From Eunapius fragilis (lineage: Eukaryota; Porifera; Demospongiae; Spongillida; Spongillidae), in the NCBI GenBank assembly GCA_963681505.1, contig OY811980.1, positions 5,707,004 to 5,771,003 of the forward strand: a DNA stretch of 64,000 nucleotides, written 5' to 3'. A program made the translations under genes and the position numbers. The notes beneath the pieces were generated by a model. That model saw only the letters and a program-made list of their open reading frames with translations. It ran no database searches and was not told the DNA's origin. Shown in pieces: positions 25,549-56,860 of this stretch. Position 1 is the stretch's first letter. Each line of letters opens with the position of its first letter.

Positions 25549-28500
25549 ATGTATGGAATTGGCAATGCTGCTATTATTGCATCATACATACTCCTGATTG
25601 CATCAAAGGAAATTGGAGGGGAAGGTGACCCAAGTGTACTTGAATGTATAAAAATGTTACAGCAGAGTGCATGTTTCAGTACTGCTCTTAATACAGTACA
25701 GATCAATTCTTATGGAATGTCAATTGCTGGACAAATATTTCAACTTTCATGCACAACAAGTGTGCCTTCTCCTGGCACAGCTCTGGCATGGATGGCTGGA
25801 GAACAGCAATTCATTGGCAACAATGTGATAATAGAGGGTGGAAACATCACATTTATTCCTCTGCTCACCTCTAACGGTGGAACATACAATTGTGTGGAAT
25901 CCTATGTAAACATGCAGCCATTTTACGTAACTGTGCAAAGTAAGGAAACGTGCCATGCACTATGTATTGTATGTGACTTTGTCAAAATCTCTCAACTGCA
26001 GTCCCTTCACCCAACATTTTGGTTTCATCAATGTCAATGCTGGGTGTTCAGAATACACTTCCAACAGACACGTACTATGTTGGAACAGATGTCCTTGTAA
26101 CCTGTAACATACGGATTGATGGAGCTGTGGACATTCCAACAGTGGTTGAAACAAAGTGGGTTGGACCACAGGGATCAGTTCTGAACAACAGCAGGGCAAT
26201 AATCAATGTGTACCAATACATGACAGGCTACAACGTACATCTTTGGGTGGCAACCACTGATACAAATGCTAGTGGCTTTTACCAGTGCCAATGTAATATA
26301 ACTGCAGATAGACCGTACGTGCAGCCAGGCTCAGCCCATTCATCACTTCAGTTACATATTCAAGGTATTGTTATGTCAGTGAGAACCACGATATCATGCT
26401 GTTTCTATTGTGTACAGCTAAGAACCCACCAAATGTCACTATCACTTCCAACATGGCAACAAACACTTACTCGCTCGTGTGCAACGTGAAAGTGGTAGAT
26501 GAACTGTTAGTTGTCCCTGATGTGGTGTGGATGAAGGATGGAAGAGTACTTGTTAATGGGACTAATACCACACTGACTAGGACTGTATCAGGAGCCAACA
26601 GCACATTAAACCTTACCTTTAACCCTCTCCTCACATCACATGGAGGACAGTACATCTGTATAGCCACAATCTACTTGCTTCAATTACAAGCTAATGCTTC
26701 CGCCAATGTTAAAGTACAAAGTAAGTGTGTGGATACATACCAGTGATATAGCAATGAAATGTTCCCCTCAACAGTTCCACCACCCCGTGTCATGATACTC
26801 ACTGATCCACCTGGACAGGTGGTCCCTGTTGGTGGAAATATGAGTATTAATTGTACTGCTACATTAAGCCCATCAGTGGACACGTCCATGGTAGTGAATA
26901 CACAATGGAACACACCATCAAGAGGGAATATCTCTTCTAGCTCTATGGTAGTACCTGGAATGGTGTACTGGAGCATACAGACATGGAACTCACTGGACAC
27001 CACTGATGCTGGAAACTATACCTGTTCAGTGACCATCTCCTCCAATGGCTCCCAGTTCACCACACAAGCCACACCAACAGCCACCACTTTAGGTATGCTT
27101 CTAAGTGATACATTGTGAGTGCCATTTCCACATCACCTGCTCTCAGTTTCAGTGTATTCAATCAGCATCACAATGCAGCAGGGCAGCCCAATAGCTGGCT
27201 ACACATACTCACTCCTATGCATGGGAAGAGTATGGGGAAACACACTCACCTCCCCTTTGGTGGTGTGGAAGAACTCAAGTGGTGCTGTTCCTAATGGAAC
27301 CACCATCATCACATCAAATGGCACTCTCACCTTCAACCCTCTCCACACCTCACATGGAGGGTTGTACACATGTCACTCCTTACAAAACACTAACATCTCA
27401 GCAACATACTCAGTTTATGTTCAAAGTTAGTGAAAGATGGATGATGTAATTATTGGTTGTGAACTGTACATTGTTCTACATCAGTCCCTTCACCCATCAT
27501 ATCTATTGCTCTGCAACCTTCAATGGGACCGTTCTACATTGGAACAACACTCCTCCTTACCTGCAGTGTACAAATAGACACAGCAGTGGACACTCCTGTG
27601 ATGATGGATGCTGTGTGTGTTGGACCACTGGGGCCTGTTCACAATGACAGCTGGAACTCTATCATAACCTCACGAACAAAATCTGGTTTCAATACATCCG
27701 TTTACATGGTCCTTCTAAACATACCTACCAGCAGTTCATATCATTGTATTTGGAAAATCTCATCATCAAATCCTAGTGTATTATCTGTTGCCAATACCTT
27801 TCAGTTTCAATTGCTAACTACAGGTAATAATTTCAGGTCTATATGTGCATATAGTAATCAAACTTCTTACATGTCAGCTACCCCACAACCCTCCATAACT
27901 ATTTTTAGCACTGGAATGAATATAGCTGGATCTGCGTACTCACTGGTGTGTACAGTGAAGGTGGTAGACGGACTGGTAGTTGTCCCTGATGTGGTGTGGA
28001 TGAAGGATGGAAGAGTACTTGTTAATGGGACTAATACCACACTGACTAGGACTGTATCAGGAGCCAACAGCACATTAAACCTTACCTTTAACCCTCTCCT
28101 CACATCACATGGAGGACAGTACGTCTGTATATCCACAATCTTCTTGCTCCAATTACAAGCTAATGCTTCCTCCAATGTCACAGTACAAAGTAAGTGTGTG
28201 GATACTTACCAGTGATATAGTGAAATGTTCCCCTCAACAGTTCCACCACCCCGTGTCATGATGCTCACTGATCCACCTGGACAGGTGGTCCCTGTTGGTG
28301 GATATATGAGTATTAGTTGTACTGCTACATTAAGCCCATCAGTGGACACGTCCATGGTAGTGAATACACAATGGAACATACCATCAAGAGGGAATGTCTC
28401 TTTTAGCTCTATGGTAGTACCTGGAATGGTGTACTGGAGCATACAGACATGGAACTCACTGGACACCACTGATGCTGGGAACTATACCTGTTCAGTGACC

Positions 28501-31500
28501 ATCTCCTCCAATGGCTTCCAGTTCACCACACAAGCCGCACAAACAGCCACCACTTTAGGTATGCTTCTAAGTGATATATTGTGCGTGCAAAGATCTTATG
28601 CATCATCCACTTTCAGTTTCAGTGTATTCAATCAGCATCACAATGCAGCAGGGCAGCCCAATAGCTGGCTACACATACTCACTGCTATGCACGGGAAGAG
28701 TATGGGGAAACACACTCACCTACCCTTTGGTGGTGTGGAAGAACTCAAGTGGTGCTGTTCCTAATGGAACCACCATCATCACATCAAATGGCACTCTCAC
28801 CTTCAACCCTCTCCACACCTCACATGGAGGGTTGTACACATGTCACTCCTTACAAAACACAAACATCTCAGCAACATACTTAGTTTATGTTCAAAGTAAG
28901 TGATGTTTAACATTGATGTATACTAATGACGTAGTTTCTAAGAACTGTTTCCAGTTCCTCCTCCAGCTATGGCCATCACTGTTATGCCTAAAGATCAGCA
29001 ACTGTATACCATTGGAACAAGACTCCTCCTTACCTGCAGTGTACAAATAGACACAGCAGTGGACACTCCTGTGATGATGGACGCTGAATGGGTTGGACCA
29101 TTGGGGCCTGTTCACAATGACAGCTGGAACTCTATCATAAGTTCCCAGACGATCTCTGGTTTGAATACATCACTTTCCATGGTCCTTCTAAACATAACTG
29201 CCAGCAGTTTTTATCAGTGTATTTGGTACATCTCATCATCAAATCCTAATGTAGGATCAACTGCCAATATCTCGCGGTTTCAATTAATAACTACAGGTAA
29301 TAATTTCAGGTCTACAAGTGCATGTAGTAAATAACCTTCCTACATGTCAGCTACCCCACAACCCTCCATAACTGTTTCTAGCACTGGAATGAATACAGCT
29401 GGATCTGTTTACTCACTGATGTGTACAGTGAAGGTGGTAGACGGACTGGTAGTTGTCCCTGATGTGGTGTGGATGAAGGATGGAAGAGTACTTGTTAATA
29501 GGACTAATACCACTCTGACTAGGACTGTATCAGGAGCCAACAGCACATTAAACCTTACCTTTAACCCTCTCCTCACATCCCATGGAGGACAGTACGTCTG
29601 TATAGCCACAATCTTCTTGCTCCAATTACAAGCTAATGCTTCCGCCAATGTCACAGTACAAAGTATGTGTGGATACTTACCAGTGATATAGTGAAATGTT
29701 CCCCTCAACAGTTCCACCACCCCGTGTCATGATGCTCACTGATCCACCTGGACAGGTGGTCCCTGTTGGTGGAAATATGAGTATTAATTGTACTGCTACC
29801 ATAGGCCTATCAGTTGACACATCCATGGTAGTGAATACACAATGGAACACACCATCAAGAGGGAATATCTCTTCTAGCTCTTTGGTATTGCCTGGAATGG
29901 GATACTGGAGTATTCAGACATGGAACTCACTGGACACCACTGATGCTGGAAACTATACCTGTTCAGTGACCATCTCCTCCAATGGCTCCCAGTTCACCAC
30001 ACAAGCCACACAAATAACAAAAATTCTTGGTAAATATAACCAAGAAGTGTATTTTCTAATGCAATCATATCTACCCTTTCAGTTCACACAATCAATATAT
30101 CCACTGAGGGAAACCCAGTAAATGGCCAAACATATTCCTTGATTTGTACAGGACGAATATTTGGCAATATGTCTATAATGCCAGCTGTGCTGTGGAGTGG
30201 AGCTGCTCTGAACGGGAGCAATGTTCTTGTAATGGGTGGCAATCTAACCTTCAATGGTCTTCAAGCAAAAAATGTAGGGCAGTACATGTGCCTATCTATC
30301 TTGGAATCGCTTAACTCAACTGTTGTGATGCGGTTTAATGTTTCTGTTCTAAGTGAGTTTTGCTATTATTATGTCTGCATGTAGGGGAGTGCACAATTTT
30401 TTTGTACAGGGGAGACTTTAAATTTATGCATGTAATGTTGATATATAAAGCTTGTGTTTATGATACTATATGTATATTGTGATTACTGAGGGAGGTGACC
30501 ACAGTACTACTTGTCTGCTTTGAATTGGACATGCTGAAAAAATGTCCCCCTTTCATGGTATATCATGCTTTCTGTATCCCCCCTCCTCCCCCTCCTTCCC
30601 ACCCTTACTCATAAGGCACCCGTGTGGCTGCTCCATACATTCCACATGGTGTAACTGTTACAGCATTAAACACAACGTCAGTGTATGTCGTGTGGAACAG
30701 CACTGCAGACAGTGGCATAAATGGTACAGTCGCAGCATATGAAGTGAGCTATGTGGGGCCGCCCAATGCCACCGGATACGTCAACGTCACCGCTAACGGC
30801 ACGTCAGTTCTGCTGACGGGTCTCAGTGTTTGTGTGCAATACAACGTCTTTGTGAGGGCATATGATTCAAAGGGACCTGGACCTTTTAGTGATGCAGCAC
30901 GCGACATTACTTTCAATGGTGAGCAAAAACAACACTTCAAATTGTTTCTTATGTTAAGAAAAACACCATCCACAAACACACACAACTCTGAAAACACTCC
31001 CACTCCACACCCATCCCACCACTCCATCCACTTCTCCAACACCACCTTTGAACTCATCCACTTCCCAAAGCTGGCCAGGTCCCGCAGCCGCCGGAGGTTC
31101 TACCAAGTGCCCTCACTTCCACTTCGGCAAACCTCACGTGGAGCTGCCCTTTGCTGGTCAATAGGACTATCATCTCCTACGCTGTCAGTGTAACCTTAGT
31201 CAACGCAAGCGCCGTCGATTCAGATTGCATCAGGGGAAAAGAGCCAAGCATGCACTTTGATTCCATTCCCAGTGACCAGAGGCACCTGGAGCTAACTGAT
31301 GTGCTAAGTAAGTGCACTCGTGGTCGTTCAAATGCAACACTGTAACCACACCCTTCCCACCCACTATACCATCAGTACCATACGCATGGTACACATTTGC
31401 TGTGGTAGCAAGGTCAAATGCTGCCGGCGGAGGCCTATATTCCTCGCCAAGGCTATTCAGAACTCTGCAGGCCCCGCCATCGCCCGTGCGCGTGAACCTG

Positions 31501-34500
31501 CGGGCGCTCAACTCTACCAGCCTGCTCGTGTCATGGAGCCCGCCTAACTGCAGTAATGGTGTGCTGATGGGATATGTGGTGAGTGAGAGATGAATGCATA
31601 CAGAGGGAGAAGACTATCCTCCTCCTACCTCCTCCTCCCCACCCCCCAACCCTCTTGCATAGGTCTGGTTCTCTACCACTCCACCCAAATCTGCAACTGT
31701 CTCTGCCTCTTCACGTAGCCTCGTCATTAATAACCTTAACAGCAACACCAGGTACAGTGTCTCTGTGTGTGCTCTAACTGCAGCTGGATGTGGCATTGCT
31801 GCAAATGGGACGGCCACCACATTACTTGGTCAGTGAACACATATTAATTAAGGTGACTGTGCTTTGTGAATGCTATTGCCAGTTCCAGTAGTGCAGCCCA
31901 CGGTGTTTTACTTGAGAGCGTCTTTGGCTGTTGATGCCAACGGCACTGGACTGTCACAACTTTCAGATATGGTGAGTGGTGGATGTTACGTGTGGGATGC
32001 TTGCATTTTACACAGCATATGAAATGACCATCTCAGCTGATGAGTTTAGCAGCAGTGGGCCTTGGTGCTAATGTTGCATCAGGAAATGCATCCCAGACGA
32101 ACTGCAGTTTTGTGAATCAGTTAAGATGCTCTAAAGTACGCTTCAAGTCCTGTGACTTCAGTAATGTTATAGGTGCCAAGAGGACCTTGAGCATGGCTGG
32201 AATAGGGTCGAGTGCAAGGTTGCGATCTACTTCAGACTAGAGGCAAATGAGACATCAAACATTATTAGTACTGTAATTGATGGAATAGTTAATAGCAACA
32301 TACTTGGAAACAGCGCAGGAAACATTATAGGTACTGTGAGTTTCAGCCATGTGGTGAGCATTTTTATATGCAAGGTGTTGAATTCCTTTACAGTGTCAAA
32401 AACATACTTCTGCGGTTGTGAAACAAGTAACAAGAACAGGGGGGTTTACTACTGGCCAGAAGTGCAGGTCAATGGAACTGTCCTCTATCCTTGCCAGTAT
32501 GGACCTCTGGGTTACAATTCTACTCGAAAGTGTGCAGCTGGTGGGAAATGGCAGGAGGATGCATCACACTGCACCACTGAGGCGACAAATAAATTCAATA
32601 TAATCAAAAACATGAATGTAAAGATGCCATACTTTATTTCCTTATATTAATCATCTTGTGTTTTATTCAGCAAAGCGTGATTGATGGAGATGTGCTGAAC
32701 ATCACCACCCAACTGCAGGATGTGGTTTCCCAGGCAACAGCGACAACAGATCAGACATCCTCCAACCTTGTTGCTGTGGCATCTGTGTTTACACAAATAT
32801 CAAATCTCTCGTTGGCGAGAAATGGGACAGTTAAAAAAGAGGTTACCTTTAAAGCTTTGCTGGCTGCATGAGGAGGTTTGTGAACCTGATCTTTTCCAAC
32901 AATAGGTTGTTATGGCAGCAGTTGGGATACTAGATGGTATCCAGAACTGGCCTCCTCATATACTGGGTACAGAAAGTTCAAAGTTAGCCTGATGAGGTAG
33001 TATTTTCAACCACATTGATTGTATCTTGATCTTAGGATAGTGAAGTCATTTGAAACCACTGTTCACAATGTAATTCAGCAAAGTGACTTCACCCCTTTCA
33101 CTACTACGCAGAATCAGACATTTTTCAATGCAGAAAAGGTACTATTGTGACTAGTACTTTAAGTTTTACACATTTATAACTGTTCTTTTTCACCTTTCCA
33201 GCTATCGCTGACAAATGTAACAACAAAAGGGTCATCATTTTATTATTCAGGTGGAAATGGTAAGGAAGAAAAAAACAGCTCATTGAACTTTTATTGAAAG
33301 ACTCATACATTTTTAGATAGTCAAGTCAATGGTACCTCACTGTCAGCAAGCATTGTTCTACCTGCTTCACTATTTAAGGCAGTTATTGGAAATAGTTCTG
33401 ATATTGGAGTATTTTTCTCTGTCTACAAAACTCCAGCACTATTTCAATTAGTTAATGCAACAAACACCTCCATTATAGCATCATTGGTGCTAGGTGCCAC
33501 TGTTGTTTCAACAACATCATTTAAAAACCTCACAGAACCTGTGCAGCTTGAATTGCCTATCACAATCCAGGTCAGTAGAACCAGTGTTATCCGTGTAACC
33601 AGTGTGCATTGTGTATACAAAATAGAACTACTCTGCACTCTACTGTGTTTGGTGGGACTTTGATGCTGCTGGTAAGCGGAAAGTGAATTGACTGCATTTG
33701 TATGTGTGTGTGTTGTGTGTGTGTGTGTGTGTGTGTATGTGTGTGTTGTGTGTGTGTGTGCGTGTGTGTGTGGTGCACAAATGTGGCAATACTAGCAATA
33801 CTGTTGGCACACATTAGGAGGAGCAGGCAACTGGTCCACTGATGGATGCCAACCCATTACTTCAACTGCTAACCAAACCATATGTCTGTGCAATCACTTA
33901 ACTAACTTCGCTGTCCTTGTGGTAAGCTAAAGCATTTCCGTCCACTTTTACAAATCTGCCATTGTTTAGGATATATCAATCAGGACAGTAACACCTAGTT
34001 CAAAGACTAAAATAGAGAAAGCAGTGGAGCGTGTGATTGAAGTGATATCCTACATTGGCGTTGCTGTATCTCTAGTTGGGCTTCTGCTAACTATCATTTC
34101 CCTTTTATTTTTCAAGTAGGAGTTAAGCATTGTTGCACATGGTTTATGTAATTTTTGTCCAAAATCAGGCAGCTCAGGCACAAAGATACCTCCAAGTTCC
34201 ATGTTCAGCTGTGCTGTGCCCTCATTGGTATGCTGTTGGTGTTTGTGGTTGGAATTGACAGGACAGAGAACTATGGAGGCTGTGTGACTGTGTCGGTGTT
34301 GGTCCACTACTTCACCCTGGTGGCCGTGATGTGGATGGGGGCGGAGGCCTTGCTGATGTTCCAGAAGCTTGTCATTGTTTTTGTCCGGATCAACGTCCGT
34401 CACATAATCGTTCTATCACTTATCTGTTGGGGTAATAACTGTGTAGCCAGAAAGGTATAAAGATGTTCTTTACTAATATTTTTAACCCATTTAGTGGCTC

Positions 34501-35156
34501 CATTGGTTCCAGTGATTATTCCTCTTACAATTGATAGGAGTCTGCTTGTGAATCGTAATGGAACACATGGATAGTAAGTCTAGCATAAATACAATAAGGC
34601 TGTTCAAGTTTTATAATACACAAACATACTTTGACACAGCTGCTTCATCAGTGATATCAGAGTCTTCTTTGGTGCCTTCCTTGGGCCTATACTACTGATC
34701 ATGGTCTTCAATTTCACTGCTTTTTTTACCGTGATGGCCGTATTTGTTAGACACCTTGTAAGACGTGCAAAAAGCTCCAGCAAGAGGAGCACTATCCTGC
34801 AGCTGATGGCAAGCACTGCTAGTATTTCTATTCTCTTTGGCCTTACATGGATATTTGGTGCTCTGACAGTTTCCAAAGCAGACCTAGCCTTCCAGGTCAT
34901 CTTTGCACTATCAAACTCATTCCAGGGGTTCTTCATATTCCTGTTCTTCTGTGTACTCAACAAGGAAGTTCAGTTGGCATGGAAACGGCTACTTGGCTCC
35001 CTCCATCCTGGTTATGAGAGTGTAAAAAAACAATCCACACTGACAACAAGCACTACTGGCACCAGTGGAACTGAATCTGAATCTGCCAGATCTCAGGAGA
35101 ATGCAGCATTAGACATGAGAGTGCTTGATAGCACAGATGTTCATCATAGTGCTTGA
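25549..35156 (+). CDS. Adhesion GPCR with 13 Ig domains, FN3, HRM, GAIN/GPS and 7TM
   Basis: I place 33 coding exons with GT-AG borders that join in frame (2,443 aa). A signal-like start ([20 protein letters not shown]) is followed by 13 Ig exons: 25697-25939, 26002-26364, 26418-26720, 26775-27092, 27147-27425, 27485-27823, 27878-28189, 28241-28558, 28617-28895, 28955-29296, 29351-29662, 29712-30029, 30083-30352. FN3 exons are 30616-30918, 31071-31307, 31376-31578 and 31663-31828. A possible SEA-like part (31883-32330) precedes the hormone-receptor motif ([16 protein letters not shown], 32394-32617). The GAIN region runs 32671-33570. The GPS spans 33626-33921 (CVWWDF, then [13 protein letters not shown], cleavage expected at HL/T). 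The 7TM exons are 33970-34115, 34169-34431, 34495-34573 and 34640-35156. The Ser/Thr-rich tail could be phosphorylated. In Ig6 the core Trp is Cys (DAVCVGPLG against DAEWVGPLG). An alternative ATG is at 25516. Confidence 0.92.
26002..30352 (+). repeat. Three tandem A-B-C-D four-Ig cassettes
   Basis: Ig exons 2-13 of the adhesion GPCR repeat in the order A-B-C-D three times, starting at 26002, 27485 and 28955 (spacing about 1.48 kb). A carries an [13 protein letters not shown] strand, B carries [21 protein letters not shown] carries [13 protein letters not shown], and D carries [17 protein letters not shown] single D-like domain (25697-25939) precedes the first cassette. Introns inside the cassettes are about 50-60 bp and are repeated with the exons. 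Copies 2 and 3 are closer to each other than to copy 1 in several domains. The last D (30083-30352) is the most diverged. Confidence 0.93.
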
Positions 35157-35876
35157 TGTAAATTGTAATTGTCTCATTGGCAAAGGCTGAATACATTCAG
35201 TGTACTTTAGCTTAGCAGCTTTAATGTGTTTATTTCTGCAATTAATTTAACGTGGTGACTTACTGCTGGAATTGTATAATTTGTATGCCACATTTATTCC
35301 ATATATCTAGTACTCTGAACATAGAATATATTTGATTCTGTGCTCACCCATAATGAAAGGATCAATCATGTAAAAACCAACATAACCACACATTTTATGA
35401 AAAGATCATTGTTAACCCTCCTAAATGTGAGATTTTTTTTGCATAAAAAGCCCCAAAATTGTCATTCGAGGCATCCCCATTGGGGACAAGGCATTTTGCT
35501 CTACCTTCATTTCAGAGAAGCTAAAGCTCTTCCTTCAACTTGTACAAGTAGGTGCAGTTGACCCTCATGTAACCTTTTCTCTTCTACGTAAGTGTGCGGG
35601 GTTCTGCAAACTGGCCCACCTTGCTCACAGCACACCACCCTCACAAGCCATTATAGCTCTTGAAGCTTTTAATTACGATATCCATATACTGCCTTCTCCA
35701 AAAGGCTAGCTCAGAAATTTGTACTTTAAGAAGAAGAAGGGCAAGCTAGGTTTGTACATTTCAATTTTGCTAATGCACACAATTGTCTTGTCCGTAAGTC
35801 ATGGGTAGTGCTTTATAATAGACAATGGAAATAATATTTTTGGAGTTAAGAAAGTTAGAGCAGCATCGTATTCTGC
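35157..35876. other. 3' flank of the adhesion GPCR
   Basis: AT-rich DNA with no supported gene. It should hold the 3' UTR. Confidence 0.5.
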
Positions 35877-41500: not shown

Positions 41501-42742
41501 CAGTTGAACTCCGTCTATTACCAGGTCGACATTTGCAAGAGGGTACAGCACGCTGTCTCCATGTGCACAACGTATAGTGACAGCTTCCCCTGGCAACAGT
41601 TTCGCATTTGAGAAACCAGGTTGTGGTGGACAATGGTCTTAGAGTACCCAGTATCCAACACAATGTCATTCATCTCTCTTCCTAATTCCACCAGCCCCTT
41701 TCTCTGAAGTGTAGAGTTGCCACGACGTCCATTAATACAGTACATTGCCTTCTCAGGGCACTTTAAAGCCACATGCCCCTGTTTTCCACAGCTGTAACAG
41801 TTTACTGTAGATAAGTCTCCACACCTCAGTCCTGGTCTGAAAGGTTGCTTGTCCCTGGTGTGTGGAGGTTCCCCATAAACTAGTCACTCGGTCATCCTTA
41901 GTTGACGGCTTGAGACCAGTAGGCTGGTCATCTTTGGTAGTCTGCTTCCTTGCTTCAATATAGTCATCAGCAAGCTGCCCTGCTTCCAGAGCTGTCGTGG
42001 GCTTCCGTTCCTTTACCCAGACCCGAATAGCAGGTGTAAGTGTGTTCAGCAGTTGCTCCTGGATGACTGCTTCCTTCACCAGCTCAACTGTGTTCACACC
42101 CTTGAGCCATTTTGTAGCAAGATCACCCAGATGTATAGCAAGATCATGATGAGTCTCGTCATTGCTTCGAACTGCTGACCAGAAACGCTGACGATAGGTC
42201 TCTTCGGTTATATCATAATGCCTGAGAATGGCCACCTTCACTGTATCATAGACTGACTGATAGACAAGGGGATCATCTGTACTAACAGTAGACAGAGCTG
42301 CGTAAGCCTGCTGCGCCTTCCCAGTGAGCTATGGTGCCAGTTTGAACATCCACTTGTTCCGTGGGATGCTTTATGCTGCCATCAGCCGTTCAAAGGTGGT
42401 AACGTAGGCTTCACAACGTCGTCCCGATCATTAAGCTTAACAACCCGTAGGTCATTATCACCTGTCTTGCTTGTTCGGTAGACTCCGCCCTTTTCACGTC
42501 AGCGATCTTGGCTAGCAACTCCATCTGCAACCCACCGTAGCTCCTTATCGCGCTGCTTCCACTCCTCCTCCCGTTTTAGACGATCGGCCTCGTCTTTCTG
42601 CCGGGTCTCTTCCATCCGCTTCTGTCTCTCTTGTTCCTTTTTTGCCTCCATTCGTTTCCTCTCATTTTCACGATCACGTCGCTCTTGCTCGCGCGCGCGC
42701 CTTCTTTCCTCCTCTTCGTCTCTCTGCTTTCTCTCCTCAGCA
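38509..42742 (-). mobile_element. Decayed Ty3-like retrotransposon with integrase before RT (Gmr1-like order)
   Basis: Read on the minus strand from 42742 down, the order is as follows. First a charged coiled coil (42740-42530) and a SCAN/capsid-like Gag (about 42400-41950; KWLKGVNTVELVKEAVIQEQ). Then a protease region with the active-site DTG (LDTGYSKTIVHH, about 41660). Then integrase (40990-40363), with the zinc-binding CRSCQVCQRTSKH at 40740-40700, and its C-terminal part (40161-39874; KVWYDRNACQTEFKPGDLVL). Then reverse transcriptase (39624-39130; AVYIDDLVIHS near 39150), then RNase H (38877-38509; TDALDVVVGAVLS, IEKECLAI, TDHQALE). Many stops and shifts are present, including a 39-bp duplication at about 40770-40848 in the integrase. 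The 3' end is cut off inside RNase H and no LTR is visible. Confidence 0.85.
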
Positions 42743-43104: not shown

Positions 43105-43201
43105 TAGTCTCGTACCCAGACCCACACTCCAGAACAGCTGCGGATGGATTACATCACCGCTACCACGCTGTAATCCATCCGCAGCTGTGAGTACGAGACT
43201 A
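43105..43201. mobile_element. Palindromic MITE (TAGTCTCG family)
   Basis: TAGTCTCGTACCCAGA mirrors a segment ending GTACGAGACTA. The centre holds CAGCTGCGGATGGATTACA and its complement. The same family recurs at 59180-59304, and a half copy lies at about 25060. Confidence 0.8.
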
Positions 43202-43290
43202 CCGCTAGTGACGATGCTTCGTTCTCGCCTATGTCCGTGTCTATCTGTCTCTCAATCGTTCCGCTAGACGTAATATATGCACGACCAGAA

Positions 43291-43549
43291 CAGGGGCGGA
43301 TCCAGGAATTTTGAAAAGGGGGGGGGGGGGGTACCAATAATGAAAAGTTAGAATTAAGTGAGAAATGGGCGTGGTTCACCAAAAGGGGGATATGCCCCCT
43401 CCCGCGCGAAGCGCGGACGCTTTTGATAGCTGTACGTTCAAAATGCAATTTAAAACGCTATATAGCGCGACTATGAATATATAATTAGACGAACGAAAGG
43501 GGGGGGGCACGTGCCCCCCCCCTCCCCCCCCTCCCCGGATCCGCCACTG
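43291..43549. mobile_element. hAT-like MITE (CAGGGGCGGATCCAGG ends)
   Basis: CAGGGGCGGATCC at 43291 mirrors GGATCCGCCACTG ending at 43549, flanked by CAGAA on both sides. It contains poly-G and poly-C runs and no transposase. It belongs to the same end-type as 42743-43051. Confidence 0.75.
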
Positions 43550-44648: not shown

Positions 44649-47600
44649 ATGCATCAAGTGAAAGCTGCTATCCCGCAGGGTGGAATAAGTCCAAGGATTG
44701 TCAATTTGTGTGTCTTACTGCTCCTGCTTGTTTCACTAGTTAATGGTAAGTAAGGAGAATCAACAGCTAAAACCAACAATAACTAACTTATTGTATTGCT
44801 AGCCTCCAGTAGCAACGCAGGGCAAAACTTCACACTGATATGCAATAGGGGTATGCCTACCAATGCGACATTTAAATGGACGAAACTAAATGAAACTTCC
44901 AGCATCATCAACACTACTGGTCCAAACCTAACATTCACTCCTCTGAGAACATCTGATGCAGGACAGTATTGGTGTGCTTTCAACACCAATAATATAACTG
45001 TGGGAAATATTACTGTGGCAAGTTAGTGCTTTTCAAATAGCTGAATACAATATCACATTCCATTTTATCCTAGTACCTGCTCCAAATATGACATTGACAT
45101 ATTTACCATTATTGGGTCCATACAATGTTGGGTCAAAGGTTCTCATAACCTGTAGCATTCGGATTGACAAAGCAGTGGATACATCAGTAATTGTGAATAC
45201 AATGTGGATTGGACCACAGGGAACTGTGTACAATGGAAACAGGACCACAGTCACCTATTCCCAGCCCTCAGCTATGGTCTACAATACAACACTTCAGATC
45301 AGTCCTCTAACCTCTAGTAATAATGGAACATATCAATGTGTAGGCACCATCTCTTCAACCAGTGACTATGTTACACCACCTTTTATTAATGTATCAACAA
45401 ATATATCATTGGCTGTCCAAGGTGAGGATGTGTAAGATGATCATTGATGTGATACTTATCCTACCTCTTACCTCCAGCCCTCCCTCCTCCTGTGGTCACT
45501 GCATCATCTGGTAGCTCAATAGCTGGATCTGTGTACTCAATGGTGTGTACAGTGAAGGTGGTAGATGGACTGGTGGTTGTCCCTGATGTGGTGTGGATGA
45601 AGGATGGAAGAGTACTTGTTAATGGGACTTACACCACACTGATTAGCACTGTATCAGGAGCCAACAGCACTCTGAATCTCACCTTCAACCCACTTCTAAC
45701 ATCACATGGAGGACTATATGTATGCAATGCCACAATTACCACACTTGAAATTCCTCCAATTCGTGCAAACATTTCAACTAGCATGACAGTTAAGAGTAAG
45801 TTAGATGTTTGATAACTCGTATACATTTCTAACTCTTTCTCTCCAACAGTACCCTCACCTCAGCTAACTCAGAAAACCATTCCAACATCCACATCCTACT
45901 TCACTGGGACTGGTGCGAGCATCATATGTGCTTTAGCAACCCAATCAGTAGTGGACACTCCTGTAATGGTGAACACAACATGGATTGGACCACAGGGACG
46001 TATCAACAACAATATTCCTAGGAGTATGGTAGCAGTATCACAGTATGCCACCAACTATACATACAACACAACACTTCAGATCAGCCCTCTGAATACCAGT
46101 GACACTGGTTATTATCAGTGTACTGGTAATTTATTTTCAACCATTAATTACATACAACCCTCTGATTTTTTTTCTGGAAATATTTCATTAATGGTACAAG
46201 GTGGGTGTGACCAAATGTATACCATTACCAGTTGATAACTAGTGCCCATATCTTTTTTTACAGCCCTCCCTCCTCCTGTGGTGACTGCATCACCTGGCAG
46301 CTCAATAGCTGGATCTGTGTACTCAATGGTGTGTACAGTGAAGGTGGTAGATGGACTGGTAGTTGTCCCTGATGTGGTGTGGATGAAGGATGGAAGAGTA
46401 CTTGTTAATGGGACTTACACCACACTGATTAGCACTGTATCAGGAGCCAACAGCACTCTGAATCTCACCTTCAACCCACTTCTAACATCACATGGAGGAC
46501 TATATGTATGCAATGCCACAATTACCACACTTGAAATTCCTCCAATTCGTGCAAACATTTCAACTAGCATGACAGTTAAGAGTAAGTTAGATGTTTGATA
46601 ACTCGTATACATTTCTAACTCTTTCTCTCCAAAAGTACCCTCACCTCAGCTAACTCAGAAAACTATTTCAACATCCACATCCTTCTTCTCTGGGACTGGT
46701 GCGAGCATCATATGTGCTTTAGCAACCCAATCAGTAGTGGACACTCCTGTAATGATGAACACAACATGGATTGGACCACAGGGACGTATCAACAACAATA
46801 TTCCTAGGAGTATGGTAGCAGTATCACAGTATGCCACCAACTATACATATAACACAACACTTCAGATCAGCCCTCTGAACACCAGTGACACTGGTTATTA
46901 TCAGTGTACTGGAAATTTATTTTCAACCAATAATTACATACTACCCTCTGATTTTTTTTCTGGAAATATTTCATTAATGGTACAAGGTGGGTGTGACCAA
47001 ATGTATACCATTACCAGTTGATAACACGTGCCCATACCTATTTTTACAGCCCTCCCTCCTCCTGTGGTGACTGCATCACCTGGCATCTCAATAGCTGGAT
47101 CTGTGTACTCACTGGTGTGTACAGTGAAGGTGGTAGATGGACTGGTAGTTGTCCCTGATGTGGTGTGGATGAAGGATGGAAGAGTACTTGTTAATGGGAC
47201 TAATGCCTCACTGACTAGGACTGTACCAGGATCCAACAGCACTCTTAATCTCACCTTTAACCCTCTCCGCACATCACATGGAGGACAATACACCTGTAAT
47301 GTGACTATATCAATTCAACAGGTACTTCTGCTGATGTCCAGCAGTTCAGCGCTGGTTAGTTTATTAGTGGAAAGTAAGTATATTCACGGTAGCAGTCATT
47401 GGTATTAAATTACTTTTCCCACAGTTCCACCACCAAATATTACTCCTATGGCTATTCCTTCTGGTAGCATGTTGTATGTAGGAACTAAAACAAGCATCCT
47501 CTGTGTGATTGCTATCCCATCTGTTGTTGACACACCAGTAATGGTGAATACAATATGGATTGGACCACAGGGAACTGTGTTCAATGGAAACAGAACTACA

Positions 47601-50600
47601 GTCATCAATTCCCGATCAGACATGGTCTATAACACAACACTTCAGATAATTCCTCTAAACTTCAGTGACACAGGAACATATCAATGTATAGTTAATATTT
47701 CATCTAACATTAGCTACATTAGATCTTTTATTAACGCATCAACAAATATATCATTGGCTGTCCAAGGTGAGGATGTGTGTAATGACCACTTCTGTGATAC
47801 TTATATTGCATCTTCCCCATAGCTCTCCCACTCCCTATGGTGACTGCATCATCTGGCAGCTCAATAGCTGGATCTGTGTACTCACTGGTGTGTACAGTGA
47901 AGGTGGTTGATGGACTGGTAGTTGTCCCTGATGTGGTGTGGATGAAGGATGGAAGAGTACTTGTTAATGGGACTTACACCACACTGATTAGCACTGTATC
48001 AGGAGCCAACAGCACTCTGAATCTCACCTTCAACCCACTTCTAACATCACATGGAGGACTATATGTATGCAATGCCACAATTACCACACTTGAAATTCCT
48101 CCAATTCGTGCAAACATTTCAACTAGCATGACAGTTAAGAGTAAGTTAGATGTTTGATAACTCGTATACATTTCTAACTCTTTCTCTCCAACAGTACCCT
48201 CACCACAGCTTATTCTGAAAACCATTTCAACATCCACATCCTTCTTCTCTGGGACTGGTGCGAGCATTGTATGTGCTTTAGCAACCCAATCAGTAGTGGA
48301 CACTCCTGTAATGGTGAATACAACATGGATTGGACCACAGGGACGTATCAACAACAATATTCCTAGGAGTATGGTAGCAGTATCAGAGTATGCCACCAAC
48401 TATACATACAACACAACACTTCAGATCAGCCCTCTGAACACCAGTGACACTGGTTATTATCAGTGTACTGGAAATTTATTTTCAACCAATAATTACATAC
48501 TACCCTCTGATTTTTTTTCTGGAAATATTTCCTTAATGATACAAGGTAGGTGTGGCCAAATGTATGCCATTACCAGTTGATAACTAGTATCTATACCTTT
48601 CTGTACAGCTCTCCCACTCCCTGTGGTAACTGCATCATCTGGCAGCTCAATAGCTGGATCTGTGTACTCAATGGTGTGTACTGTGAAGGTGGTAGATGGA
48701 CTGGTAGTTGTCCCTGATGTGGTGTGGATGAAGGATGGAAGAGTACTTGTTAATGGGACTTACACCACACTGATTAGCACTGTATCAGGAGCCAACAGCA
48801 CTCTGAATCTCACCTTCAACCCACTTCTAACATCACATGGAGGACTATATGTATGCAATGCCACAATTACCACACTTGAAATTCCTCCAATTCGTGCAAA
48901 CATTTCAACTAGCATGACAGTTAAGAGTAAGTTAGATGTTTGATAACTCGTATACATTTCTAACTCTTTCTCTCCAACAGTACCCTCACCACAGCTTATT
49001 CTGAAAACCATTTCAACATCCACATCCTTCTTCTCTGGGACTGGTGCGAGCATCATATGTGCTTTAGCAACCCAATCAGTAGTGGACACTCCTGTAATGG
49101 TGAACACAACATGGATTGGACCACTGGGGTATATCAACAACAATATTCCTAGGAGTATGGTATCAGTATCACAGTATGCCATCAACTATACATACAACAC
49201 AACACTTCAGATCAGCCCTCTGAACACCAGTGACACTGGTTATTATCATTGTACTGGAAATTTATTTTCAACCAATAATTACATACTACCCTCTGATTTT
49301 TTTTCTGGAAATATTTCCTTAATGATACAAGGTGGGTGTGACCAAATGTATGCCATTACTGATAACTAGTATCTATACCTTTATGTACAGCTCTCCCACT
49401 CCCTGTGGTAACTGCATCATCTGGCAGCTCAATAGCTGGATCTGTGTACTCACTGGTGTGTACAGTGAAGGTGGTAGATGGACTGGTAGTTGTCCCTGAT
49501 GTGGTGTGGATGAAGGATGGAAGAGTACTTGTTAATGGGACTAATACCACACTGACTAGGACTGTATCTGGTGGTACCATTGCTCTAAACCTCACCTTCA
49601 ATCCTCTCCTTACTTCCCATGGAGGGCAGTACCTGTGTGCACCCAGTCTTTCTAACGTCTCTCTTCCTAGTTTGACTAATTCAACAGCTGTGAACTTTAC
49701 AATTGCAAGTAAGGAATTCTACATAGACACTGACAATATTGCAGTTAACATTTATTCTATCTATCCAGTTCCTCTACCAAGTTCAGGTGTTGCAGTTTCT
49801 CCATTATATACTACCAATTATATTGGGACTTTGATAAGGATAATGTGTTCTTATATACTCCCATTGGTTGTGGACACTCCAGTAATTGTGAATACAATGT
49901 GGATTGGACCACAGGGAACTGTGTACAATGGAAGCAGGACCACAGTCACCTATTCCCAGCCCTCAGCCATGGTCTATAACACAACACTTCAGTTCAGTCC
50001 TCTAACCTTCAGTGATAATGGGACTTATCAATGTGTAGGCAACATCTCTTCAAACAGTGGCTATGTTACACCTTTTATTAATGCATCAACAAATATATCA
50101 TTGGATGTCCAAGGTGAGGATGTGTAAGATGACCATTGATGTGATACTTATCCTACCTCTTACCTCCAGCCCTCCCTCCTCCTGTGGTCACTGCATCATC
50201 TGGCAGCTCAATAGCTGGATCTGTGTACTCACTGGTGTGTACAGTGAATGTGGTAGATGGACTGGTAGTTGTCCCTGATGTGGTGTGGATGAAGGATAGA
50301 AGAGTACTTGATAATGGGACTAATACCACAGTGATAAGAACTGTATCAGGATCCAATAGCACTCTAAATCTCACCTTCAACCCTCTCCTCATATCACATG
50401 GAGGATCATATGTATGTACTGCCAGAATAGCCATACGTGAAATTACTCAGATCAGTGTTAATAGTTCAACAGTGGTTAACATGAAAGTCAAGAGTAAGAT
50501 AACATTTACGGTAATCACATTAACCTTTAAAACTCCTTTTCCTACCAGTACCTACACCTCAGTGTACTCTGAAAACCATTTCAACATCCATATCCTTCTT

Positions 50601-53600
50601 CTCTGGGACTCGTGCGAGCATCATATGTGCTTTAGCAACCCAATCAGTAGTGGACACTCCAGTAATGGTGAATGCAGCATGGAATGGACCTCAGAGCAAT
50701 ATTCCTAGGAGTATGGTAGCTGTATCACAGTATGCCACTAACTATACGTATAACACAACACTTCAGATCAGCCCTCTGAACACCAGTGACACTGGTTATT
50801 ATCAGTGTACTGGAAATTTATTTTCATACAATAATTACACACTACCCTCTGATTTTGTTTCCGGAAACATTTCATTAATGGTACAAGGTGGGTGTGACCA
50901 AATGTATGCCATTACCAGTTGATAACTAATGCCCATACCTTCATGTACAGCTCTCCCATTCCCTGTGGTGACTGCATCATCTGGCAGCTCAATAGCTGGA
51001 TCTGTGTACTCACTGGTGTGTACAGTGAAGGTGGTAGATGGACTGGTGGTTGTCCCTGGTGTGGTGTGGATGAAGGATGGAAGAGTACTTGTTAATGGGA
51101 CTAATACCACAGTGACGAGAACTGTATCAGGATCAAACAGTACTCTAAATCTCACCTTCAACCCTCTACTTACATCACATGGAGGATTATATGTATGTAC
51201 TGCCAGAATAGCCATACATGAAATTACTCAGATCAGTGTTAATAGTTCAACAGATGTTAACATGACAGTCAAGAGTAAGATAACATATTTGGTAATCACA
51301 TTAACTTTTAATATACCTTCTCCCACCAGTACCTACACCTCAGCTTACTGTGAAAAATATTTCAACATCCACATTCTTCTTCTCTGGGACTGGTGCGAGC
51401 ATCATATGTGCTTTAGCAACTCAATCAGTAGTGGACACTCCTGTAATGGTGAACACAACATGGATTGGACCACAGGGACGTATCAACAACAATATTCCTA
51501 GGAGTATGGTAGCAGTATCACAGTATGCCACCAACTATACATACAACACAACACTTCAGATCAGCCCTCTGAACACCAGTGACACTGGTTATTATCAGTG
51601 TACTGGTAATTTGTTTTCAACAAATAATTACATACTACCCTCTGATTTATTTTCTGGAAGTATTTTATTAATGGTACAAGGTGGGTGTGACCAAATGTAT
51701 ACCATTACCAGGTGATTACTAGTACCTGTACCTTTATGTACAGCCCTCCCTCCTCCTATGGTCACTGCATCATCTGGCAGCTCAATAGCTGGATCTGTGT
51801 ACTCACTGGTGTGTACAGTGAAGGTGGTAGATGGACTGGTAGTTGTCCCTGATGTGATGTGGATGAAGGATGGAAGAGTACTTGTTGATGAGATCAATGC
51901 CACACTAACTAGAGTTGTATCACCCAGTATCTCTGTTCTCAATCTGACCTTTGTTCATCTTCTCTTGTCCAATCGAGGACTGTACACATGTGTCGCAGCT
52001 ATCAATATATCTGAGTTGTTTCTCAGTAGTAATAATGATACAAATATTTCTATGACTGTTGAAAGTAAGTGTTGAATATTTACTTGCATGTCTTGGTATT
52101 GTTTAAGGTGTGTAATTTTTTCTCTTCCAATACAGTTCCTACTCCAACCGTGTCTATATCTCCCAACAATTCATACACAGCTGGCACCAGAGTCAGTATT
52201 AATTGCTCTGTTCTCTTCAACTCATTTGTTGACACTGAGGTTGTTGTAAACATGACGTGGACAAAAATTGGTAGTGGTGTCTTGATAGCTGACAATAAGT
52301 ATACTTATGTCTCATTGAACCGCACCACCAGCAGCTCTACTAGTTCCCTATTATTTGATCCAATTGGATTTGATGATATCGGAGCCTACACTTGTGCAAT
52401 TGAGATTCAGAACATGCCATTTTCCTTCATATCTCCTATCAGTAATATCAGTGATATTGTGATGGTCACTGGTATGTAATAACTATAATTGTGATGGGAG
52501 AGCATTGTAACACAATGTACATTCTGTTCTAGCAATACCATTTCTCAATGTTAGCATAATCAATCTAACTAATGCATCAACCATCTACCTGGTCTGCCAA
52601 GTCAGTGCTGTCGATGGCCTGGTTGTGCCTATCCTTCTCACATGGCATAAAATTAATGGAATTGATCAAAAAATACTTTCTGCAAGCGTGGGCAGTGCTA
52701 CTAGTACCTACACAATTAACCAATTGAGCCAAGAGGACTCTGCAGAGTACATGTGCATGGCTAACATATCCCTACCAATCAAGGGCATCAGCAACATTAG
52801 TGTTGCCACTACTGAAATTAGCTTGATTCGTAAGTTTTCACATGTATATTAAAACACTAACTTACATGAGATGTGTATGTTGCAGCGCCGGAGCCAGTAA
52901 TTGGTGCAATGATAAACATTACCTCAAAAAAAGATGTGTTAGTAGAATGGAGCACACCACTGCATACCAATGGAATTCTGAGAGGCTACAGAGTGACTTG
53001 TACTGAACTTGAAGACTACAACCAACCACTCAATCAGAAATATGCAAGCAGTGTCTCAAGTAACTCATTGAATATCAGTGATTTATGTGAGTTTCACAAC
53101 ACCATCATAATTATGAGTTCTAAAATGTAACCATCATATTCCCATTTTGTGTATAGCTTCTGGTGTTCCATATGAGATTTGTGTCAGTGCCTACAACACA
53201 GCTGGTGCCAGCATGGGGTGGTGTAATGTGTTCTTCACGGATGTCTTGAGTGAGTGTGGGCCACATTCTGTAAAGCTTGCTTTTCATGTGCATAGCTTTC
53301 CCCTCAGTGCCATCTGAAGCCCCTCGGGGAGTTACAGTGACCCGATCATCAGATGGACGCAGTATGGTTGTTAGCTGGGAGCCACTGACACTCACAAAGG
53401 CTAAAGGTTTTCCTTTCTACATTGTGTCATACACCTTCGATAACGCTGTTCGTATAAGGCGTGGTACTTCAGCTCAAATAACAGTATACAAAGCCAGCTC
53501 AGTACTAATAACTGGATTGGATCCATTTAGTGATTACCAAGTGACTGTGACTGTGTCAAATTATGGGAACAGCACAGGGAAAAACATGGCATACGAAGCG

Positions 53601-56600
53601 GGGGTGACAAGCATTGCTGTAAAATCTGAATCTGTGGCATACACAGCTACTTTCTATGGTGGGCACCTCCCCCCCCCCCCCCTTACCTTAACATGTACTT
53701 GCTACATCACCATCCCCAGGAGTAGTTTCAGCAGTGGCAGCTATGGCAGTAGTTGTGCTACTGTGTTGCTGTGTGTGCTGGTGAGTTACCATCAAGGCAC
53801 TGCATGCCCTTATAGTGGGACATTATTCTTTACTTTGCACCCCTATGCACAAAGCTGCAATTGTTGTAGGGCTAAGGCAGCACGTCGAGACATCTATGTG
53901 TTGAATGAAATGGACTATAACGTGAAACGATTGAAGGAGGGGGGTGTATGTGAAACAGATATGGCACAGCTAGATAAGCCACAGCTAGATAAGCCACATC
54001 CTGATAGACAAGGTGAGACCTGGCAGGGCAGGTGGTGAATCCATTATTGATAATGATGATATGCTTACAGCAGAGAGTGACAAAAGGGTGTCAATCAGCC
54101 TGAACTGCTTTAGGGAATATGTAGAGAAGATGCATGTAGATGGAGACAGAGGGTTTGAGCTCGAGTTTGAGGTACAGTCATTTGAATGTCTCTGTGAATA
54201 ATTCCAAACTCTTTCCCCGCAGTTGTTGAAATCCGAACCAGAAAAATCTGATCATCTTAGTTGTAGTCAATTGCCATGCAACCAAAAGAAGAACAGATAT
54301 TGCAACATCCTTCCATGTAGATGACGTATTTGTGTTTGCAGAATAACTATTTGCTTCCTTTAGATGATGCATCAAGAGTAATTTTGAAAGAGATCAAAGA
54401 TGTGCCAGGATCAGACTACATCAATGCCAGTTACATAGATGTAAGAACTGATGTGCTGCAATGATGTGCAGGCTTCAAATGTATATATTCATTCTTTTTT
54501 GTATGCAGGGTTACAATTGTCAGAATGTATACATTGCTACACAAGGTAAGTATTGAATTGTTAATGAATAGAATTTTTTTAATACTTAGGTTTTAGGGCC
54601 TAATGCTGAAACAGTTGATGATTTCTGGAGAATGATTTGGGAAAAGCAGCTGGATACAATTGTAATGCTTGCAAAATGTATTGAAGATGGCAAAGTGAGA
54701 TAGACAAGCATGGTATATAAACTTCGATGATAATTGTTGTACATTTGGCAGCAAAAGTGTGCCCAGTACTGGGCAGAAGGGAGTGGAAACAAATGTGACA
54801 CATCTCGGTTTACTGTTACAACTGTTTCTACTGAATGTTTTGGTGACTATGTTACAAATTCCCTAGTACTCTCTAATGTGAGGTTGAAATAATTGTGAAA
54901 TTTTGATACTTGTAGTTATTGGCTTTAATCTGCAGAAGGAAAAACCAGATGGAGAAAATTTGCATGTCAAACATTTTCATTTTATATCCTGGCCGGATGA
55001 AGGAGTACCTGGGACATATTCTACACTGATATCCTTCCTCAAACATACCCAGAAGAATCGTAAGTTAAGAGAAGAGAACCCAATGGTGGTCCACTGTAGT
55101 GCTGGTGTTGGTCGCACTGGGACATTCATTGCCATAAGCATTTTGTTGCAAAAAATCAACGTTGAAGACTCAATCAATATATTTGAGTGCGTGAACCAAT
55201 TAAGAAAGAAACGCCTATTCATGGTTCAGGCACTGGTAAGGGGGGAGGAGCAATATGTCCTCCTTTAAATATATACAATATTGCCTTTAGGAGCAGTATA
55301 TATTTATCCATGATGCTATTTTGGATCAAATTATGTGTGGAGTTACGGAAATTGATGCTGGAAACCTCAGAGCAAAGGTCAACAATTTGTATAAAATTAC
55401 TGCTGGAAATGCAGTAAATGGATTTGCACAGCAGTTCCAGGTATGTAATTGTAATTTCACATGAGACCATTATGAATTGACACGCATTGCAGGGCCGTAG
55501 CCTCCAGTCCGGCCAGTCCGGCCATGGCCGGACCGGTTTTAGCCTAGCCAACTTCCAATTATTATGTTAATACTATAATTTATTAATTCCCTCATGGTCT
55601 CCCACCCTCGCTCCCACCAATGGCCGGACCGGTTTATTTATCGTGGCTACGGCCCTGCATTGACATAGTAAATAACGTCCTTCTTCTTCAAGGACAAATT
55701 GTCCATTGAATTAATGTTGACTGCATCCATAAATTGTCATTAAACAGCTACTTAATGATGTCTGCAAAAAGCCTCTAAAAGTGGATTGTTCTGCTTCATT
55801 GGAAAACTCTAATGAGATGAAAAACCGATATCATGATAAACCACACTGTATGTCAGTACTTGTGTTGCTCAGTGCAAATATTTGAGTTGCTTGTTGTATT
55901 CCAGACAATCACTCTCGGATATTGCTGGCACAAGATGCCTCAAACTCCACCTACATCAATGCTAGCAAAGTTCGAGTATGTTTGTTGCACTTGTGTTATT
56001 TGTGGCATGCCCACTGCAATTTTTTTTTGCCTCTCGTATCTAAAGGGTTACAGGTTTTTGTGCACCTACATTGCTACCCAAGGCCCATTAAGTAACACAG
56101 TGAATGATTTTTGGAAGATGATAATGGAGCAACAAAGCAAGACCATTGTTATGTTGTGCCCACTAGCAGAGGAAGGGGAGGAGTCATCAGTCTGTTATTG
56201 GCCCACGGCAGCTGAACCAGTACAGTATGGAACAGTCAGTGTGCATCTGTTGTCTTCTGCTGCCAGTAACAACATGGTCATTCGGAAGCTGAAGATTACT
56301 GAAGACATTGTGAGCTATTTATAATGTCATCTTTAAATTGGATTTAGCCATTTATTTACAATGCAGAATGAATTAGCTGTGACCCAGTATTGCTATTCTG
56401 AGTGGCCACTGCATGGCAAGCCAGCTAGCCCAGCTGGTATCCTTCAACTATTAGATATGCTCAACAATGCTCAAGTCGTTTCTGAGAAAAACATAATTAC
56501 AGTTGTCTGCAAGTATGTTGAACTGCTGACATCACTAATAATGTGTATCATGTACAATGAATCATTTCTCAAAGCGATGGGTGTGGTCGTACTGGGTCAT

Positions 56601-56860
56601 TCATCTGCATCCACTCTGAGCTTGAACACCTCAAGGCTGAGGGAGCTGTGGACATCTTCCAGTGTATCAAGACAATACGGTCTTCACGTCCTGGCATGGT
56701 CCAAAATGTGGTAGGATTGGTGCAAATGTCACTGGAAGGGTTAGTCACCTTTGTTTCCTTGTAGGAACAGTATGCTTATTGCCATGATGTCCTTGCTGGC
56801 TATGTTGATAGCAATGCTGCATCACACTCAATTGTCAACCCTAGTGCCAATTCAAAATAA
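44649..56860 (+). CDS. Receptor tyrosine phosphatase with 21 Ig and 2 FN3 domains
   Basis: I place about 41 exons that join in frame (3,198 aa). Exon 1 (44649-44745) ends with the signal peptide core [17 protein letters not shown]. Ig exons are 44803-45021, 45074-45421, 45478-45795, 45850-46200, 46264-46581, 46636-46986, 47050-47373, 47425-47766, 47823-48140, 48195-48545, 48609-48926, 48981-49331, 49391-49708, 49769-50113, 50170-50493, 50549-50887, 50951-51274, 51330-51680, 51744-52064, 52136-52471 and 52533-52829. FN3: 52886-53086, 53157-53249, 53308-53658. TM exon 53720-53780 ([16 protein letters not shown]). Phosphatase domain 1 (54071-55440) has [17 protein letters not shown], the WPD loop (SWPDEGVPG) and the catalytic [11 protein letters not shown] near 55089-55121, so it should be active. 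Domain 2 (55748-56860) has WPL instead of WPD and VVCNDGCGRTG instead of VHCSxGxGRTG, so it is probably a pseudophosphatase. The family dephosphorylates phosphotyrosine at the plasma membrane downstream of adhesion. Confidence 0.94.
45074..52064 (+). repeat. Three tandem A-B-C-B-C-B six-Ig super-repeats
   Basis: Ig exons 2-19 of the receptor phosphatase follow the order A-B-C-B-C-B three times, starting at 45074, 47425 and 49769 and ending at 52064 (spacing about 2.35 kb). A carries [13 protein letters not shown] strands, B carries [20 protein letters not shown], and C carries [20 protein letters not shown]. The intervening introns (about 50-65 bp) repeat too. Later B copies of each block diverge at their C-terminal third. 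Ig16 has lost 12 bp of the C-type strand ([10 protein letters not shown]). Confidence 0.94.
55490..55657. mobile_element. Small MITE in a receptor phosphatase intron
   Basis: CAGGGCCGTAGCC mirrors GGCTACGGCCCTG, flanked by CATTG on both sides (55485-55489 and 55658-55662). The interior contains GGCCGGACCGG twice. It lies in the intron between the two phosphatase domains and does not disturb the exons. Confidence 0.85.

Follow-up and report, generated by a model that had tools for sequence, protein, structure and literature searches.

An adhesion GPCR and a receptor tyrosine phosphatase of the sponge Eunapius fragilis share Ig exon types, one of them with a nearly identical core

How do two receptors whose signalling ends have nothing in common come to carry, in part, nearly the same extracellular module? 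The question is raised by a stretch of 64,000 nucleotides from the demosponge Eunapius fragilis (assembly GCA_963681505.1, contig OY811980.1, here chromosome C10, C10:5707004-5771003; hereafter the window), where an adhesion G-protein-coupled receptor (aGPCR) and a receptor tyrosine phosphatase (RPTP), each with a long array of immunoglobulin (Ig) exons, lie in tandem. The reading that we favour, with a probability of roughly 0.58, is that the aGPCR bears a phosphatase-type Ig array, that the core of one of its exon types was later exchanged or homogenised between genes, and that both receptors present one recognition scaffold with paired outputs.

On the forward strand, the aGPCR, composed of Ig, fibronectin type III (fn3), GPS and seven-transmembrane (7TM) segments, is followed by the RPTP, composed of Ig, fn3 and two protein tyrosine phosphatase (PTP) domains, as detected by Pfam and by a hidden Markov model (HMM) built from the Ig exons of the window. 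This HMM finds 13 Ig exons at 25681-30363 and 21 at 44787-52831, all on the forward strand. Both counts and the tandem layout agree with the first-pass annotation of this DNA, as does its statement that the signalling ends are unrelated, since 7tm_2 and GPS domains occur in the first gene and two PTP domains in the second. GT/AG splice sites of phase 1 with an open frame between them were placed for 11 of the 13 aGPCR and 20 of the 21 RPTP Ig exons, the acceptor being unplaced in the other three; the uniform exon length modulo 3 is by construction, since the script demanded phase 1. Between Ig exons, the measured introns are short in both genes (49-71 bp). Four Ig types, designated C, A, E and D, were drawn from an alignment of the Igs, and the features of both receptors are as follows, in window coordinates.

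25681..30363, + strand: aGPCR Ig array, a first Ig followed by three [C, A, E, D] units (Ig HMM, alignment, splice sites in 11 of 13 exons, types by tree)
26468..26660, + strand: A core of aGPCR Ig3, 84-90% identical in DNA to the full-length A matches of the window RPTP
27922..28129, + strand: A core of aGPCR Ig7, whose top match is window RPTP Ig7 at 92.8%
29397..29602, + strand: A core of aGPCR Ig11, at most 90.8% identical to window RPTP Ig7
30642..31794, + strand: aGPCR fn3 domains, of which Pfam detects two (42.7 and 33.3 bits, cut-off 25)
33805..33918, + strand: GPS autoproteolysis motif, CNHLTNF with the site HL^T (PF01825, 44.1 bits)
about 34146..34937, + strand: 7TM region, 7tm_2 (PF00002; 33.7 and 51.9 bits in two exons, cut-off 20.6)
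44787..52831, + strand: RPTP Ig array, with a first Ig, C and A alternating in nine pairs, and the juxtamembrane Igs Y and Z (Ig HMM, alignment, splice sites in 20 of 21 exons, tree)
47050..47373, + strand: RPTP Ig7 (A type), the phosphatase exon of the window nearest to the aGPCR A exons (blastn, synonymous counts)
52912..53567, + strand: RPTP fn3 domains, one at 26.6 bits and the other at 19.1 bits, under the Pfam cut-off
54503..55259, + strand: PTP domain 1, with the WPD loop and a motif of 10 residues (Pfam, PTP search)
56034..56734, + strand: PTP domain 2, with WPL in place of WPD (Pfam, PTP search)

The first gene thus combines a 7tm_2 domain with a GPS motif carrying an HL^S/T site, the two hallmarks of adhesion GPCRs, and its autoproteolytic cleavage is predicted; the closest named relative of its 7TM region is a protein of Ephydatia muelleri with 48% identity. 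In the second gene, Y_phosphatase is matched in two frames with 222.1 and 91 bits, in two stretches each, which amounts to a tandem PTP with the active-site Cys in domain 1. This first domain (D1) contains WPD and the motif of 10 residues, while the WPL of the second (D2) suggests that the latter probably has reduced or no activity.

The relationships among the Ig exons extend beyond the window. Besides the window RPTP, its neighbours at the locus, among them a phosphatase gene to its right (G3), are referred to below as near RPTPs, a phosphatase gene 1.8 Mb away at C10:7.547-7.559 Mb as the far RPTP, and a broken array of 25 Igs to the left, on the minus strand, as G4. In a tree of 74 Igs, built by a quick method from few columns, with several long branches and with G4 left out, the aGPCR C exons group with near-RPTP C exons (SH-aLRT 97) and its A exons with near-RPTP A exons (99), while its E exons group with those of the far RPTP (93) and its D exons likewise (85-88). 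The E and D types are absent from the alternating C-A array of the window RPTP and have their relatives in more distant phosphatases; the first Ig of either window gene is long-branched and of unsure type. Separate deep clades for each gene, the pattern that would have spoken against sharing, were not seen, and every aGPCR type groups with phosphatase Igs. The first-pass claim that both genes draw on the same Ig exon families therefore holds for the types, but the sharing is uneven: only the A type is nearly identical, and only over its central ~200 bp. This A-type exon, with its motif of 18 residues, is probably the "type B" named there as shared, whereas the C exons are related but old, with a synonymous divergence (dS) of 1.5 between aGPCR and window RPTP.

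The near-identity is confined to a sharply bounded tract. Comparison of the window genes by blastn yields alignments of ~190-220 bp within every A exon, with 84-93% identity (only 123-138 bp for RPTP Ig19, also an A exon), with short patches elsewhere, and these core matches reach E-values down to 3e-85, far past chance. Within the core, dS between aGPCR and window RPTP is 0.43 pooled over 27 pairs and 0.13 at best, compared with 0.26 within the window RPTP itself, while the flanks of the same exons reach 0.9 on the N side and saturation on the C side. For aGPCR Ig7 and RPTP Ig7, the core shows synonymous differences at 6.0 of 51.2 sites, whereas the flanks differ at 21.0 of 29.0 (Fisher p 5e-8), and the core/flank contrast has p <0.01 in six of seven pairs, which were chosen by the authors and are mostly close. 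Moreover, the E and D exons of the aGPCR differ from those of the far RPTP with dS 1.1 and 1.6, respectively, and aGPCR and RPTP introns have a median identity of 0.59-0.66 against a shuffle baseline of 0.54-0.56. A recent swap of whole Ig exons was considered and dropped, since exon ends and introns are unrelated between the genes; a simple tandem gene duplication was likewise rejected, given the unrelated signalling ends and an alignment restricted to ~200 bp of the A exons and short patches. The near-identity of the A cores is thus likely to derive from gene conversion or crossing-over between the genes.

Two alternatives have to be weighed against these figures. In an assembly artefact, collapsed or duplicated haplotypes would have produced the similarity, and highly repetitive arrays are in general hard to assemble; however, introns and exon ends differ between both genes and, on other contigs of the protein database, A and E exons of the same types accompany a related 7TM, which leaves this explanation very improbable indeed. 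Of greater weight is common ancestry alone, in which a single ancestral Ig array gave rise to both and unusually strong constraint on protein and codons has preserved the A core, an account that we regard as possible though doubtful. It is opposed by the gradient of core divergence, since dS pooled by gene is 0.30-0.43 between the aGPCR and near RPTPs (with the best value given above) and 0.70 between the aGPCR and far cores, and the near values lie well under the 1.5 of the C exons of the same genes. It is equally opposed by alignment windows starting at columns 44-64, where the aGPCR is 0.70-0.96 identical to near RPTPs and 0.41-0.52 to far ones.

Several observations nevertheless weigh against the favoured reading, and part of them favours common ancestry. 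Firstly, near and far A cores differ from each other with dS 0.70-0.78, under the value of their N flanks, so that synonymous conservation or an older exchange is possible. At the 3' end of the core (columns 76-84) the aGPCR is closer to far (0.74-0.87) than to near A exons (0.60-0.82), and one of the seven pairs, aGPCR Ig7 and RPTP Ig13, gives only p 0.056 for core against flanks. At the C-side exon ends, dS of the aGPCR is 0.79 to far phosphatases and (nearly) saturated to near ones, while nonsynonymous divergence shows the opposite, although alignments of 25 residues are unsafe. Secondly, the three aGPCR cores form one clade (99/96) inside the near phosphatases in a DNA tree of A cores, but monophyly of the near RPTPs is not rejected by the approximately unbiased (AU) test (p 0.38; cost 1.8 log units). 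Four genes supplied the A exons for the AU test, for the pooled dS and for the pair count given below, the broken fragments at 5668785 and 5700655-5703159 being left out. Repeated recent exchange is therefore not forced by the single aGPCR clade and the AU result, and the topology gives no direction, which suggests that exchange finds its best support in the contrast between core and flanks rather than in the tree. Thirdly, one Ig in the E clade of the Ig tree comes from a different aGPCR region, its very long branch being flagged as doubtful by the program.

Further points on the same side come from the protein database, in which 41 matches to an A exon were found, 15 on a contig of 1,144,714 bp whose proteins match the locus at 98.8-100% and 26 elsewhere (termed foreign here). 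The A cores are conserved across other assemblies, and the best foreign ones have 95-96% protein identity to the aGPCR cores, whereas the own phosphatase cores reach at best 93% (to Ig7), 91% (Ig11) and less than 90% (Ig3); likewise, 23 of the 26 foreign A exons outrank every own phosphatase exon as matches to the open reading frame (ORF) of aGPCR Ig3. The greater proximity of the foreign cores favours a more ancestral aGPCR copy, or constraint, over a very recent copy from phosphatase to aGPCR. In turn, the core motif SGGN is present in 23 of the 26 foreign A exons and in none of the 31 own exons, aGPCR included, a split that fits homogenisation within the species and that plain lineage change could also explain. 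The foreign A exons include 11 on a contig of 287,430 bp from another assembly, which also carries a 7TM exon 68% identical to that of the window (the second foreign match by E-value) and the sole foreign match to the E exon (61%), the three sets of matches being assigned to one contig by its equal size; a contig of 553,256 bp carries two A exons and a 7TM at 65%.

The origin of the array was approached through its distribution in the genome (218.9 Mb, 24 contigs), by searches that scored about 150 candidates each, so that all counts are lower bounds. Among the 149 A matches listed, A-type exons with at least 68% identity occur only at C10:5.657-5.786 Mb, carried by the window aGPCR, the window RPTP, G3, G4 and fragments, while C10 also bears relatives with ~50% identity, almost always ahead of PTP exons. 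PTP exons themselves have at least 192 matches genome-wide, most of those listed being on C10. Next-exon neighbours within 15 kb downstream were counted on C10 only, for the top 67 of the 149 A matches (down to 65 bits) and for 57 of the 124 E-type matches (the top 59 less two on C4), relative to C10 PTP matches down to an E-value of ~5e-14, three in this range being missed, and to the 22 7TM matches listed on C10. The next exon is PTP in 46/67 A matches and 7TM in 5/67 (three in the window aGPCR, two in G4); the 16/67 with neither belong mostly to the rest of G4 and to fragments. In the case of E-type exons, a PTP exon comes next in 53/57, three are those of the window aGPCR and one has neither. 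The far RPTP contains 19 Igs with two consecutive full E-D-C-A units in addition to E-D pairs. As its cyclic E-D-C-A order equals that of the aGPCR, and E and A exons stand mostly before PTP domains, the aGPCR Ig array is read as phosphatase-derived. A second aGPCR with 7TM and GPS, at C15:2.690-2.698 Mb, has eight Igs in which E-like ones (28-43% identity to E types) alternate with another type; this occurrence of E-like Igs means that Ig sharing may be older or may have been repeated. Large clusters of phosphatase exons are located at C10 about 6.98-8.45 Mb. A phosphatase-type Ig array of the order x-E-D-E-D-Y-Z with fn3 is found at C4:10637001-10647000 with a SCAN domain behind it, and no PTP match occurs in the ~7 kb behind.

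Homogenisation of A cores is also apparent among phosphatase genes. Between the window RPTP and G3, dS is 0.27 in the A core and 0.145 on the N side of the A exon, compared with 2.5 in PTP D1 and saturation in D2, so that these phosphatase genes, despite catalytic domains diverged to saturation, retain similar parts of their ectodomain exons. Introns preceding A exons have median identities of 0.71-0.95 between different phosphatase genes, with maxima of 1.00. Moreover, the class of the A-exon tail fixes the class of the following C exon in 25/25 non-terminal pairs of near RPTPs, a score matched by 0 of 20,000 permutations, the tail classes having been drawn by eye beforehand and three terminal pairs left out. 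Tail, intron and next exon therefore tend to move as a unit, with recombination apparently falling within the A core. In the aGPCR, the tail is followed by an E exon in 3/3 A exons. Against so tidy a picture stand the C exons of the window RPTP and G3, with dS 0.83, and their A tails, with 1.5, which indicate that the array is homogenised only in part; the introns after A exons, with medians of only 0.65-0.66 between phosphatase genes (maxima 0.94-0.98); and two of the three terminal A exons, which break the tail rule in that tail class QQ, elsewhere found before C3, precedes a juxtamembrane Ig.

Is the Ig array before the 7TM region part of the aGPCR at all? It could be a separate, truncated RPTP-like gene, given that the joining of Ig exons to the 7TM is predicted from DNA alone and that the nearby G4 array has broken exons with no PTP found behind it. 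Yet the array is succeeded by fn3, GPS and 7TM segments of the same strand, beginning ~250 bp past aGPCR Ig13 with an fn3 exon that has a candidate phase-1 acceptor; splice sites and open frames are present in 11 of the 13 Ig exons, and an E exon and a 7TM share the 287,430-bp contig of the other assembly, so that we consider a separate gene quite improbable. G4 itself (C10:5656293-5665894, minus strand) consists of A and C exons and is followed by fn3; its Ig7 contains a TGA, its Ig2 ends abnormally, and no PTP domain was found behind the array. Downstream, weak hAT- and PHD-like matches, under the Pfam cut-off, are followed by nine further fn3 stretches, and an aGPCR 7TM lies at C10:5642.8-5643.6 kb, 12.7 kb downstream of G4. 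Homology to the neighbouring RPTP stops at the 3' end of G4 in blastn. Because of the abnormal Ig2 end, the TGA in Ig7, the 3' loss of RPTP homology and the weak transposon-like matches, G4 is more likely a broken RPTP than a second fusion of Igs to an aGPCR. Just left of the window, at C10:5700655-5703159, fragments of A and C Ig exons with broken frames appear to be relics of another array.

The favoured reading, a phosphatase-type array in the aGPCR with later exchange of its A core, would proceed in three steps. Phase-1 symmetric exons would have allowed an ancestral aGPCR at the locus to capture a [C-A-E-D] Ig array from a phosphatase gene next to it; local phosphatases would later have lost E and D and expanded their C-A pairs; and the A core would afterwards have been exchanged or homogenised across genes, in either direction, leaving the last ~25 residues of the A exon, at the end of the last strand pair, gene- or class-specific. 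The original proposal of ectodomain sharing by local duplication or exon shuffling is retained as regards the sharing, in view of the tree, the exon order, the genomic distribution and the synonymous divergence, and is sharpened to an older capture with later, tract-like exchange.

At the protein level, the tandem Igs of both receptors may bind the same kind of partner, probably in cell-cell or homophilic contacts, with the conserved A core as framework and the variable end of the A domain setting specificity. A structure model of the A domain, of low confidence (mean pLDDT 63.9), places the variable tail in its last two strands. The outputs would then differ, the aGPCR acting through GPS and tethered-agonist G-protein signalling and the RPTP through removal of phosphotyrosine by D1, as in a paired-receptor arrangement; paired outputs on one scaffold are the working mechanism that the analogy with vertebrate paired receptors suggests. 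A stronger version, in which continuing exchange between unrelated families holds one Ig scaffold common, so that a single ligand or self-partner is read by two chemistries and the A-domain end confers specificity, is tentative and rather doubtful. The sharply bounded tract can be studied at synonymous sites. If ligands are shared, the locus would offer an early-branching animal system in which one recognition event is wired to both G-protein and phosphotyrosine signalling, as well as a concrete candidate locus for sponge cell recognition.

Other features of the window comprise a SCAN domain ORF between both receptor genes (41756-42328, minus strand), probably part of a mobile element, a LOTUS/OST-HTH domain ORF immediately upstream of the aGPCR (24134-24736, minus strand) and an ORF with a glycosyltransferase family 64 domain (4923-5618, minus strand). 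A kinase search gave no match on C10 5.19-6.51 Mb among the matches listed.

How, finally, does this locus relate to known systems? Receptor phosphatases of the LAR/R2A type combine an ectodomain of Ig and fn3 domains with two PTP domains, LAR itself having three Igs; the window RPTP follows the same domain plan with 21 Igs, mostly in alternating pairs. As regards sponges, the N-terminal domains of Amphimedon queenslandica aGPCRs include Ig and fn3 (PMC4302439, legend of Figure 4), and section 8 of that account contains no mention of Ig exons common to aGPCRs and receptor phosphatases. Nor was a description of such sharing found in the titles and opening abstracts listed by searches of the open-licence literature, in passages of PMC6208332 or in those of the other papers compared here.

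In the Hydractinia Alr complex, clustered Ig-superfamily genes are accompanied by pseudogenes, and Alr1 and Alr2, which are single-pass and highly polymorphic, control the allorecognition response (PMC11067881, as far as the parts consulted describe it). The clustering of Ig-superfamily genes with relics is alike here, whereas 7TM and PTP signalling is different and the aGPCR, with its 7TM region, is not a single-pass protein. A self/nonself recognition locus of this kind would be in keeping with tandem Ig receptors, similar tracts between copies, relics nearby and a large phosphatase family on C10; however, the signalling ends are not Alr-like and concerted evolution occurs without a recognition role too, which makes it unlikely. 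At the fuhc locus of Botryllus, the receptor genes fester and FcoR likewise form adjacent pairs whose putative outputs differ, yet their domains (Ig, sushi, ITIM/hemITAM) differ and, in the parts of PMC12065747 consulted, no sharing of Igs between a GPCR and an RPTP is described. A possible parallel in mechanism is offered by CD300A and CD300C, paired receptors of the Ig superfamily whose ectodomain likeness is kept by gene conversion despite differing signalling (PMC12447643, in the portion consulted). Vertebrate paired receptors, however, belong to one family with inhibitory and activating members, whereas the 7TM and PTP ends of the sponge receptors are unrelated and near-identity is limited to a single Ig type. 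Both paired receptors and exon shuffling have been described, each on its own; in this locus, recognition modules appear to be common to otherwise unrelated receptor classes.

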